A DNA stretch of 64,000 bases from NCBI GenBank assembly GCA_021776115.1, contig JAJFGN010000070.1, forward strand, positions 124,001 to 188,000. The letters run 5' to 3'. The first letter of the stretch is position 1, and every line of letters begins with the position of its first letter. Made by a program: the position numbers and the translations under genes. The notes below the pieces were generated by a model that saw only the letters and a program-made list of their open reading frames with translations, was not told where the DNA came from and searched no databases. Below, one piece after another: positions 14,824-19,400 of the stretch. The stretch comes from Kiloniellaceae bacterium. Its GTDB lineage: Bacteria; Pseudomonadota; Alphaproteobacteria; Kiloniellales; J153.

Positions 14824-16674
14824 TTAGTCCGCGTCGGGTTCGGCGACTCCGTCGTTATTGTCACCGCTATCGTCGTCAGCCTCATCCTTGGCCGCTGCCT
14901 TTTTCTTGGCGCTTTTCGCCGGTTTCGGTTTTTCTGTCTTGGCGCCCTCGTCACTCGAGGGCGATTCTTTCTCTTTTGCTGCTTTTGAAATTGCCGCGCC
15001 CAAGATATCGCCCAGACTCGCACCCGATTCGGTCGAGCCATAGTCGGCCATGGCCTTCTTCTCTTCTTCGACCTCGCGCTGTTTAATCGACAAGGCTAGC
15101 TTGCGGGTTTTTGGGTCGAAGGTCGTAACTTTGGCGTCAAATTTTTCGCCGACGGCGAAGCGCTCGGGCTTCTGTTCGGCACGCTCGCGCGATAGTTCAG
15201 CCTTGCGAATGAAGCCGACCAGACCGTCACCGGCCTCTACCTCGATTCCATTGTCGACGACCTGTCGCACGGTGCAGGTAACAATCGCGCCTTTCTTGAT
15301 ATCGCCCGCCGCACCCGCGAAGGGGTCGTCGCTGAGCTGTTTAATGCCGAGGCTGATGCGCTCCTTCTCGATGTCGACGTCCAAGACCTTGACCTTGACC
15401 TCATCGCCCTTGTTGTACTGCTTGACGGCTTCCTCGCCGGGCAGATTCCAGTCGAGGTCGGAAAAATGAACCATCCCGTCGATGTCGCCGGGCAGGCCGA
15501 CAAACAAACCGAATTCGGTGATGTTCTTGATCTCGCCGCTCAACTCGCGGCCGACCGGATAGGTTTCGACGAAAGCATCCCAAGGATTGTTCAGGCACTG
15601 TTTCAGACCCAGGCTGATTCGGCGTTTTTGCTCGTCCACGTCCAGGACCATGACTTCGACTTCCTGGCTGGTCGAGACGATCTTGCCGGGATGCACGTTC
15701 TTCTTGGTCCAGCTCATCTCGGAGACATGGACCAGCCCCTCTATGCCGGCTTCCAATTCGACGAAAGCGCCGTAGTCCGTAATGTTGGTGACCCGACCGG
15801 TGAATTTCGTGCCGATCGGGTATTTGGCGGCGACACCTTCCCAGGGATCGGCCTCCAGCTGCTTCATGCCCAGGCTGATGCGCTGGGTTTCCGGATTAAA
15901 GCGGATAACCTGCACCTTGACCTGTTGGCCGATCGACAAGGATTCGCTTGGATGGTTGATTCGCTTCCAGGAGATGTCCGTGACGTGGAGCAGGCCGTCG
16001 ACCCCGCCTAGATCCACGAAAGCGCCGTAATCGGTGATGTTCTTGACCACGCCGTCGAGGACCTGGCCCTCTTTCAGGCCGGCGATCAGTTCAGATCTCT
16101 GTACGGCGCGTGTCTCCTCAAGCACGGCGCGACGCGACACCACGATGTTACCCCGCGAGCGGTCCATCTTGAGGATCTGGAACGGTTGCGGCGAACCCAT
16201 CAGCGGTCCGACGTCGCGAACCGGGCGGATATCGACCTGGCTGCCCGGCAGGAAGGCCACGGCGCCCGAGAGGTCGACGGTAAAGCCGCCCTTTACCCGG
16301 CCAAAGATGACACCGGTCACGCGCGTTGCGTCGTTGAAAGACGTCTCAAGCAGGGTCCAAGCTTCCTCGCGCTTGGCTTTTTCGCGCGACAGCATGGCCA
16401 AGCCGTCCTTGTTCTCCATGCGCTCGAGATAGACTTCGACTTGGTCGCCGACCTTGATCTCCGGCGCCTGGCCAGCCTCCGCGAATTCCTTCAAGGCGAC
16501 GCGCCCTTCGGACTTCAAGCCAACGTCAATGACGGCGGCGTCGCCCTCGACGGCGATGACGGTGCCTTTAAGGACTGTGCCCTCCAGGCCATCCGCTTGG
16601 CCGAGGGATTCTTCGAGCAGGGCGGCAAAGCTCTCTTTGCCTGATTCGGGGGATTGTGCGGCTGCTTGAGCCAT
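14824..16674 (-). CDS. rpsA: 30S ribosomal protein S1
   Basis: 616 residues. S1 binds mRNA at the ribosome and is needed for initiation on most transcripts. Six S1 (OB-fold) repeats can be followed, with 'GTVIAVEGDAAVIDVG', 'ITDYGAFVDLGGVDGLLH', 'ITDYGAFVELEAGIEGLVH' and 'ITEFGLFVGLPGDIDGMVH' as the most obvious. The start at 16674 has AAGGAA upstream. The C-terminal about 60 residues beyond the last S1 repeat are low-complexity: a Lys/Ala/Pro-rich segment followed by an Asp-rich end, making the protein longer than the usual about 560-570. cmk lies upstream, the order cmk-rpsA-ihfB being widely conserved. Confidence 0.97.
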   Translation of the reverse strand: MAQAAAQSPESGKESFAALLEESLGQADGLEGTVLKGTVIAVEGDAAVIDVGLKSEGRVALKEFAEAGQAPEIKVGDQVEVYLERMENKDGLAMLSREKAKREEAWTLLETSFNDATRVTGVIFGRVKGGFTVDLSGAVAFLPGSQVDIRPVRDVGPLMGSPQPFQILKMDRSRGNIVVSRRAVLEETRAVQRSELIAGLKEGQVLDGVVKNITDYGAFVDLGGVDGLLHVTDISWKRINHPSESLSIGQQVKVQVIRFNPETQRISLGMKQLEADPWEGVAAKYPIGTKFTGRVTNITDYGAFVELEAGIEGLVHVSEMSWTKKNVHPGKIVSTSQEVEVMVLDVDEQKRRISLGLKQCLNNPWDAFVETYPVGRELSGEIKNITEFGLFVGLPGDIDGMVHFSDLDWNLPGEEAVKQYNKGDEVKVKVLDVDIEKERISLGIKQLSDDPFAGAAGDIKKGAIVTCTVRQVVDNGIEVEAGDGLVGFIRKAELSRERAEQKPERFAVGEKFDAKVTTFDPKTRKLALSIKQREVEEEKKAMADYGSTESGASLGDILGAAISKAAKEKESPSSDEGAKTEKPKPAKSAKKKAAAKDEADDDSGDNNDGVAEPDAD

Positions 16675-16770
16675 AGACTAGGTTCCTTTCACTATTCGAA
16701 ATATACGGGCCGACCGGTTGGCTCCGGCGGTCTTCCCGGGATTCGTCCCGGGCGCGTGTTCGGTACATCA

Positions 16771-16870
16771 CCCTGGGCCTCGCGGCCCGTCTTAACCCTG
16801 GGCCTCGCGGCCCGTCTTAAACCTGGGCCTCGCGGCCCGTCTCAACCTTCGCCTTGCGGCCCGTGTGCGG
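16771..16870. repeat. Four tandem 25-bp repeats with hairpin potential between cmk and rpsA
   Basis: Units start at 16771, 16796, 16821 and 16846. The first two are identical (CCCTGGGCCTCGCGGCCCGT + CTTAA), the third differs at two positions and the fourth is degenerate. Each intact unit contains GGGCC-TCGC-GGCCC, which on the minus-strand RNA folds as a 5-bp stem with a GCGA tetraloop. Copies three and four run into the end of cmk (stop at 16842). There are no unique spacers, so it is not a CRISPR. Function unknown; it may modulate cmk-rpsA read-through. Confidence 0.8.
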
Positions 16871-17510
16871 GGGATGGGGGGCGATACGCCGAGACGATCC
16901 GCTTGGCGGCCTCGAAAGCCGCGTCCGCGTCCATTTCGCTGGTATCTAGGACAAACGCACCGGGCGCGGATTTTAGCGGCGCAGCGTCACGGGCACTGTC
17001 GCGAGCGTCCCGGGCTTCCATTTCCTGCACAACGCGCGCGTATATACTCGGCTCACCCCGATCTAGCAACTCTTTATGGCGCCGCCCCGCCCTGGCCTCA
17101 GGGCTGGCGCTGACGAAAAGCTTAATGTCCGCTTGCGGACAAACCACGGTTCCAATGTCCCGCCCATCAAGGATGGCCCCCTTCTTGCCCTCTGGCGGGT
17201 GAGCGGCAAAGCGGCGTTGTAGATCCAAGAGTGCGGCGCGTACCGAGGGGATCGCGGCGATGATGGAGGCCGCCTGGCCTATGTTCTCCTGGCGCAATCC
17301 CGGCCGTGCCAGATCGGCGAACGCAAGCGCCCGCGCGGCGGCGCAGGCGGCTTCGGCGTCGGTGGGAATCGCGCCGGCTTCGAGCACCTTGGCCGCCACG
17401 GCGCGATAAATCAGCCCGGTGTCAAGATAGGCGAGATCGAACGCTGCGGCGAGGCGTCGCGCGAGCGTGCCTTTTCCCGACGCGCCGGGGCCATCGATGG
17501 CAATAATCAT
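16842..17510 (-). CDS. cmk: Cytidylate kinase
   Basis: 222 residues. Cmk phosphorylates CMP and dCMP with ATP. The P-loop 'GPGASGKG' is at about residues 7-14, followed by '[12 protein letters not shown]' and '[20 protein letters not shown]', typical of the family. The start at 17510 gives 'MIIAIDGPG', the expected N-terminus; a TTG 21 bases upstream is also in frame. Immediately upstream the first 12 bases of the gene recur twice more as a 14-bp tandem repeat, giving a chain of three ATGA-type overlaps between the aroA stop and cmk. The 3' end runs into the 25-bp repeat array. Confidence 0.96.
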
Positions 17511-17538
17511 GGGGCAATAATCATGGGGCAATAATCAT
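17499..17538 (-). repeat. Triple 14-bp repeat creating successive ATGA stop/start overlaps at the aroA-cmk junction
   Basis: On the minus strand ATGATTATTGCCCC occurs at 17538 and 17524, and a third copy at 17510 begins cmk (ATGATTATTGCC, then diverging). The first ATG overlaps the aroA TGA. Translation from copy 1 or 2 gives Met-Ile-Ile-Ala-Pro and then TGA, which overlaps the ATG of the next copy. All three are read directly from the sequence. Confidence 0.9.
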
Positions 17539-18848
17539 GGTGCCGTTAATTTCGCGCCCAATCCGGTCATCAGCTCGGCGAAGCCGGGAAAGCTGGTCTC
17601 GATCGGGCCTGCGTCGTCGACCGCGATCGGGCGCTCGGCGTTCAGACCCAAGACCAGGAAGCTCATCGCGATGCGGTGATCTAAAGCAGTCTCGACGACC
17701 GCGCCGCCGGGTACACGCCCAGCCATGCCGTGGACGGTCACGGAATCGGGACCTTCCTCGACCTCGACGCCACAGGCCGTCAGGCCGCGCGCCACGGCGC
17801 TCAAGCGGTCGCTTTCCTTCACCCGCAGCTCGGCCAGACCGTGCATGACAGTCACGCCCTGGGCGCAAGCCGCCGCAACTGCGAGGATCGGGTACTCGTC
17901 GATCATACTGGGCGCACGCCATGCCGGGACTTCGACGCCGCTCAAAGGGCCCGCCTCGATCGAGATATCCGCGACCGGCTCCCCGGCCTCTTCATGCGGG
18001 TTCTCAATTTCGATGCGCGCGCCCATCTCTTGGAGAGTGTCGATCAAGCCCGTGCGATGCGGGTTCATGCCGATACCCTCGAGACTCAAGCGCGAGCCAG
18101 GCAACATCGCCGCGGCGACAAGCGGGAAGGCGGCTGAAGAGGGATCGCCCGGCACGCGCAGCGACTGCCCCATGAGCTCTGGTTGTCCCTGGAGAGTAAT
18201 GACGCGGCCCTCGTTGCCTTGGACGATGTTGATATTGGCCCCGAAGGTACGCAACATGCGTTCGGTGTGGTCACGCGTCGGCGTCGGCTCGATCACGCTC
18301 GTCGCTCCGGGTGCGTTCAGGCCCGCGAATAGGACTGCCGACTTAACCTGGGCGGAGGCGACGGGAAGTTTATAGGAGATCGGCGCGGCTTCGCCCGAGC
18401 CCACCACGGTCAGCGGCAGGCGGCACCCCTCGCGCGCGAGAAGCTGGGCGCCCATTTCCCGCAAAGGCGCGGCAACGCGCGCCATGGGCCGGCTGCGGAG
18501 GCTGGCATCGCCGGTCAGGATGGCGGTTAGAGAATGGCTGGCCAGGATGCCTAAAAGCAGCCGGGCGCCGGTCCCCGAATTACCCATGTCCAGCACCTGA
18601 TCTGGTTCGATCAAGCCACCAATGCCACGGCCCCAAACGCGCCAGGTGCCGCTGGAGTCGCGCTCGACCTCCGCCCCCAGCGCTTGCATCGCGGCGGCGG
18701 TGCGCAGCACGTCCTCGCCTTCCAACAAGCCCTCTATGGTGCTTTGACCCGTGGCCAGCGCACCGATCATCAAGGCGCGATGCGATATGGACTTATCGCC
18801 CGGCACGCGCGCGCGGCCTTCGATGGCTTCGCTCGGATTGGCGGTCAT
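17535..18848 (-). CDS. aroA: 3-phosphoshikimate 1-carboxyvinyltransferase (EPSP synthase), class II-like
   Basis: 437 residues. AroA transfers enolpyruvate from PEP to shikimate-3-phosphate, the sixth step of the shikimate pathway. The sequence matches the class II (CP4-like) type: '[14 protein letters not shown]', '[20 protein letters not shown]', '[13 protein letters not shown]', '[16 protein letters not shown]', '[15 protein letters not shown]' and '[16 protein letters not shown]'. The PEP-site loop reads 'GNSGTGARL', with Gly92 where the CP4 enzyme has Ala100. The ATG at 18848 is chosen over an open upstream extension because it gives the family start. It is divergent from the FYDLN protein gene, an arrangement common in alphaproteobacteria; the 168-base gap must hold both promoters. 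Confidence 0.96.
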
Positions 18849-19016
18849 GGGTCGCACGGTGGTTGGTCTTTCCAAATTCGGTTGTGGAGCGGCGTTCCTA
18901 ACACACTCCCTCAAGCGTGAGCCAGTGTGGGTGCGTGAATTACCTTTTGACAGGGACCCTGGATCGTGGCAATTGCCTCGCCCGTTACCGCCCATGCCAG
19001 GATCGGAGGAGCGCCC

Positions 19017-19400
19017 GTGGCCAAACAAGACTGGGGAACAAAGAGGCTATGCCAGTCCTGTGCGACGAAATTCTACGATTTTGGCCGTACACCCATCGTG
19101 TGCCCTAAATGCACAACAACCTTCGATCCCGAAACTTTGTTGAAGGCGCGCCGTAGCCGCCCGAGTAGCGCAAGTAAAGCGGCCAAACCGCCCAAGCCGG
19201 CCCAGGTCCTCAAACCCGCTAAAGACGAAGACGAGGATACGGCGATTGGCGTCGATCTCGATGACGAGGATGTCGTGGATCTGGACGATACCGATGACGA
19301 AGACGATTCGGTGCTGGCGGATGCCTCCGATCTGGGTGGCGATGATGTCAAAGATGTCGTTGGCGCTAAAAAAAAGGGTGATGGCGACGACGATCGCTGA
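19017..19400 (+). CDS. FYDLN acid-domain protein (TIGR02300 family)
   Basis: 127 residues from a GTG start with a strong GGAGGA seven bases upstream. The N-terminus has '[20 protein letters not shown]' and '[12 protein letters not shown]', two CxxC pairs that probably bind zinc, and contains the FYDxxR signature of the family. The C-terminal half is first Lys/Ala/Pro rich and then extremely acidic (Asp/Glu runs from about residue 70), giving a bipolar charge pattern. Family members occur almost only in alphaproteobacteria, often divergent from aroA as here, and have no established function. A longer ATG-less upstream reading is possible but lacks a ribosome site. Confidence 0.88.

Follow-up and report, generated by a model that had tools for sequence, protein, structure and literature searches.

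Three serial ATGA overlaps between aroA and cmk in a Kiloniellaceae genome: probably a recent slippage triplication tolerated because translational coupling stays possible

The aroA–cmk junction of the Kiloniellaceae genome analysed here carries a perfect 14-bp tandem array that places three stop/start overlaps in series between the two genes. We consider it likely, with a probability of about 0.7, that the array is a recent triplication by slippage, tolerated since the coupling path survives, and probably not selected as a regulator. A conserved ATGA overlap between aroA and cmk would have grown from one copy to three by replication slippage between GCC triplets 14 bp apart, and every added copy would form a mini-ORF of five codons, with its TGA overlapping the following ATG. 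A ribosome ending aroA could still reach cmk via two extra termination–reinitiation steps, and the cost of the array would be at most a modest drop in Cmk output. The array is most likely tolerated because coupling remains possible, and we infer that it is nearly neutral.

The array spans positions 17499–17540 on the minus strand of the window (the whole stretch of 64,000 nucleotides that was analysed) and consists of three copies of CCATGATTATTGCC. Tandem Repeats Finder gave a period of 14, 3.0 copies, a 100% match and a score of 84, and a direct sequence check found all three copies at the junction to be exact. Read on the minus strand, the junction runs ACG GCA CC, ATGATTATTGCCCC, ATGATTATTGCCCC, ATGATTATTGCC, then ATC GAT GGC. 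The initial annotation had described two 14-bp units followed by a further 12 bases, which is the same array written in another phase. Allowing up to two mismatches, the unit occurs three times in the window, and three or more matches were reached in none of 100 dinucleotide-preserving shuffles. The array-bearing genome (85 contigs, with a completeness rating of 98.7%) has few short perfect arrays of this size, but the one at the junction is not alone. The 413 kb that were scanned held one other 14-bp array, of 2.9 copies (L129:14329–14368, G000:C30); it is unrelated to the first and intergenic, flanked by divergent genes that we take to be rph-like and hrcA-like.

All reading frames at the junction lie on the minus strand. 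The aroA ORF (17535–19028, from the ORF list and Pfam) encodes EPSP synthase (EPSP_synthase, 6.9e-109); its 5' end is given as the earliest TTG. Since the Pfam domain does not start until residue 65 of that ORF, the actual start codon probably lies further inside it. The aroA stop TGA at 17537–17535 overlaps ATG1 at 17538. A frame check showed that ATG1 opens mini-ORF 1 (17521–17538), which reads MIIAP* and whose TGA overlaps ATG2, and that ATG2 opens mini-ORF 2 (17507–17524), with the same reading and a TGA that overlaps ATG3. At 17510, ATG3 opens the 222-aa frame of cytidylate kinase, cmk (16842–17510, from the ORF list and Pfam; Cytidylate_kin, 2.4e-52). An overlap of −4 nt, in which the stop of one ORF lies over the start of the next, is therefore present three times in series. 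This bears out two statements of the initial annotation, that three stop/start overlaps follow one another up to the cmk start and that both five-codon mini-frames repeat the first four codons of Cmk. Since 14 is 2 mod 3, the stop/start path stays intact at any number of units.

Comparison with relatives shows how the array may have arisen. In two congeners, G001 and G002, aroA and cmk are joined by a plain ATGA overlap in one copy, and the third of the three congeners, G003, has a GTGA overlap. A repeated cmk start was found in 1 of the 61 genomes searched in the taxonomic order, namely the array-bearing genome itself. Copy number in related genomes, which had been proposed as a check, thus differs between species, with three copies here vs one in G001 and G002. 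Both of these congeners have two GCC triplets that flank the overlap at a spacing of exactly 14 bp; slippage between them therefore predicts exactly the observed unit, and the third copy would represent a further event. The proposed 3' slippage triplet is the GCC codon for Ala4 of Cmk (17499–17501, minus strand). The proposed 5' triplet corresponds to an aroA Ala codon (17541–17543, minus strand) that is GCC in G001 and G002 and GCA here, presumably since changed synonymously. The inner copies have GCCCC before the ATG, as do G001 and G002, and GCA CC stands in front of copy 1; the synonymous change from GCC to GCA therefore most likely followed the duplication. Slippage generates short tandem repeats and VNTRs, and the sequence comparison suggests it as the mutational route here as well. 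The array shares with such VNTRs the form of a perfect short tandem repeat, and its unit length matches the spacing at which a short direct repeat recurs in the congeners; it differs from them in that no frame is turned on or off when the copy number changes.

The other end of cmk also carries a tandem array. On the minus strand at 16770–16864, a 25-bp unit with a GGGCC..GGCCC inverted core is repeated 3.8 times at 91% match, spanning the last cmk codons and the cmk–rpsA spacer, and fewer, diverged copies are present in G001 and G002. Considered together with the other 14-bp array of the genome, this signifies that short tandem growth is not confined to the aroA–cmk junction. At about 16700–16740 on the minus strand, upstream of rpsA, the motif (A/G)GGAAGACCGCCGGA (16737–16723) is followed by a CAACCGG.CGGCC-like sequence. 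The motif precedes rpsA in all seven family loci checked and the region has no Rfam match; it is possibly an rpsA leader structure.

Shine–Dalgarno pairing before ATG1, ATG2 and ATG3 amounts to −2.1, −1.1 and +0.6 kcal/mol, compared with −5.9 kcal/mol for rpsA and a median of −3.5 kcal/mol over 51 called genes of the window. With such weak pairing at each of the three ATGs, cmk appears to depend on coupling. Between positions 16500 and 19200, no known RNA family matched at E values up to 0.1 (Rfam), a scan for sigma-70-like promoters gave none, and terminator-like sites were about as frequent as expected by chance (2 vs a mean of 2.4). Termination–reinitiation at −4-nt overlaps (ATGA or GTGA) is known for gene pairs, as described in the sections drawn on here (PMC10666635; PMC6728339). 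In the reporters presented in parts of PMC10666635, coupling is nearly lost with about 20 nt from stop to start, and the last 15 nt of the upstream gene are enough for coupling when tested as the end of a long fusion, not as a five-codon ORF. According to section 7 of the same source, reinitiation also took place across 15 nt in one of the two E. coli pairs (PMC10666635), so it is conceivable that a ribosome steps over one unit. The start of ATG3 is 27 nt downstream of the first base of the aroA stop; given this distance, the weak Shine–Dalgarno pairing and the need for near-contact in the reporters, a relay would be one natural means of keeping cmk translated, and we infer that ribosomes use it. 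Very short ORFs may lose ribosomes. By analogy with the reporter work on other pairs in those sections (PMC10666635), a working relay through the mini-ORFs is plausible.

Translation of cmk could also bypass the relay, starting from an in-frame TTG (17529–17531, minus strand, from the ORF list), from a post-termination ribosome that moves to ATG3, or by independent initiation, in which case the array would be a spacer. Counted from the first base of the aroA stop, the TTG at 17531 is 6 nt further on; the Cmk frame that it opens runs without a break for 229 aa and has no need of ATG3, and passages of a review describe coupling at positive spacing in some systems (PMC12548453). However, ATG1 directly overlaps the aroA stop, ATG3 lies at a distance where coupling is nearly lost in the systems tested in the cited part of PMC10666635, and its value of +0.6 kcal/mol means no Shine–Dalgarno pairing there. 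We therefore regard a bypass as unlikely.

The array was set in the context of its class by examining 244 aroA–cmk loci, from which 171 distinct junctions were scored; 44 loci without aroA found upstream, 18 that were not adjacent or odd and 11 duplicates were set aside. Direct overlap of aroA and cmk is the commonest state (102/171), and the overlap is thus common among relatives of the same pair. A relay path exists in 10 of the scored junctions, with the array-bearing window counted in. Classes were assigned mechanically: the seven ‘dead’ junctions, which have an overlapping start but no path, include L142, L152 and L154, whose layout differs, and the 52 junctions without an overlapping ATG/GTG take in the long overlaps L136–L139. 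One record, L104 (JAHREI010000001.1), is labelled Bacillus subtilis SK6B4, yet its aroA–cmk junction is almost the same as the one in Pseudochrobactrum (L103); this similarity suggests that the record is probably mislabelled or mixed.

Repeats of at least 13 bp were found at 6 of the 171 scored junctions, the next best being 7 bp. The overlap itself is copied in three of them: in the window (14 bp × 3), in G323 (17 bp × 2, L218) and in G426 (L232), where the duplication has a 17-bp spacing and a diverged tail. The spacing of 17 bp in G323 and G426 is also 2 mod 3, a rule for copied overlaps that is based on these three cases. The repeat of G323 is absent from the five congeners examined and that of G426 from three, one of which (L338) seems to differ in the sequence upstream of cmk; both duplications arose independently of the array in the window. 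The other three repeats are a 15-bp repeat within a 17-codon mini-ORF (L039, which match length and identity assign to the same-family genome G007), a repeat of 18 bp × 3, MIVGIAMIVAIAMIVAIDGP, in frame at the Cmk start (L152, G363:C141:34122–34180), and a 13-bp repeat in an untranslated spacer (L026, G037). The offsets of all six keep the translated path intact, in a set of few cases of which the window and L152 were ascertained.

Duplication of the same overlap in three lineages independently would be expected of a selected attenuator, in which each overlap passes on part of the ribosomes and the copy number, quickly changeable by slippage, sets the AroA:Cmk ratio; three serial links would multiply the losses. 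Junction repeats are also in excess at aroA–cmk at one cut-off (4/149 vs 1/532, p = 0.009), but this cut-off was chosen afterwards and the stretch lengths differ; the 149 are the 171 junctions minus 22 rows that represent the window itself or a pattern-targeted search. At a lower cut-off the excess is no longer significant (4/149 vs 5/532, p = 0.11), and we consider it weak. Moreover, each duplication is limited to one genome, and relay readings occur at chance rate over gene pairs generally, which makes a selected attenuator very unlikely.

This chance rate comes from a census of 1.61 Mb of sequence from 16 genomes, in which a caller based on codon usage identified 1258 genes. The 834 pairs of same-strand neighbours included 302 whose genes lay too far apart and were left out; in 225 of the remaining pairs the stop is TAA or TAG. 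TGA junctions where the preceding base makes CTG/TTG, not ATG/GTG, served as controls, and direct overlaps were excluded. Relay paths showed no excess, with 12/65 candidate ATG/GTG junctions vs 20/124 CTG/TTG controls (p = 0.69), nor did they for ATG alone vs CTG (8/29 vs 16/88, p = 0.30). The aroA–cmk junction of the window falls outside this census, its cmk having been missed by the gene caller. With a frequency close to chance, the mini-ORF relay was rejected as a generally selected layout. The initial annotation had put the chain forward as a possible device; this proposal finds no support, because relays occur at chance rate, the array was seen in one genome only and slippage between the GCC triplets accounts for the unit length.

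Another three-link ATGA relay is present in the same genome, at a junction between acpS and an upstream gene that we take to be pdxJ-like (L133:5063–5020, minus strand, G000:C70). It reads MTKTAMAPA*, MIMEPR*, then AcpS. This relay has no exact repeats and is not conserved; of eight family relatives, one (G003) shows a relay of a single link at this junction.

That the array is an assembly or sequencing artefact of a genome with one copy, as its presence in one genome only might suggest, is extremely unlikely, given that it is 42 bp long and shorter than ordinary sequencing reads, that copy 1 has GCACC in front of it whereas copies 2 and 3 have GCCCC, and that analogous arrays exist in two unrelated genomes (G323 and G426).

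The array can be compared with several known systems. As in the known −4-nt overlap pairs, every link of the array is an ordinary ATGA overlap; unlike them, the array puts two extra overlaps with five-codon ORFs between aroA and cmk. Judged by titles and abstract openings, no description of a repeated ATGA chain at aroA–cmk was found in the literature searched. Mycobacterial interspersed repetitive units (MIRUs) can be arranged in tandem between a pair of genes. They are the nearest precedent in the passages of PMC12548453 used here, which refer to Supply et al. 1997: a repeat with a mini-ORF that is joined to the next gene by a −4-nt overlap and is so tolerated. The word ‘unusual’, used of the chain in the initial annotation, is fair as a description, but in view of this precedent the chain is not without parallel (PMC12548453, in part). 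The mini-ORFs of the array are likewise joined to their neighbour by a −4-nt overlap; the array differs in that it is 14 bp in unit length, built from the local junction, not found interspersed and not mycobacterial. A search of the whole genome for the repeated-start pattern returned this array and one in-frame site in another coding frame, which is presumably TRAP permease-like, and a dispersed element was rejected on this result. The array is not found interspersed, so it would be MIRU-like in its mode of working and is not a MIRU member. In short-ORF ‘ribosome delivery’ and engineered bicistronic designs, as outlined in part of PMC12548453, the stop of a short ORF also meets the start of a gene; these have a single leader, whereas the array has two, after a full upstream gene.

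Tuning of the AroA:Cmk ratio by the array is possible, as a proposal. A broader proposal, which we think quite unlikely, is that stop/start overlaps are slippage-prone sites at which expansion by 2 mod 3 would be self-healing, since the relay would be restored at any copy number, giving a heritable and reversible attenuator in which each copy would reduce the second gene by one further reinitiation step; at aroA–cmk in the Alphaproteobacteria it would have had at least three independent origins. If it is merely tolerated slippage, the array is a curiosity. Junctions of this kind with one, two and three links exist in nature and could serve to measure the loss per termination–reinitiation step; they also suggest a survival rule for duplications at gene overlaps, namely 2 mod 3 where the overlap is duplicated and 0 mod 3 within a frame. 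If the array does tune expression, overlapped operons would carry an unnoticed kind of repeat-based dial.
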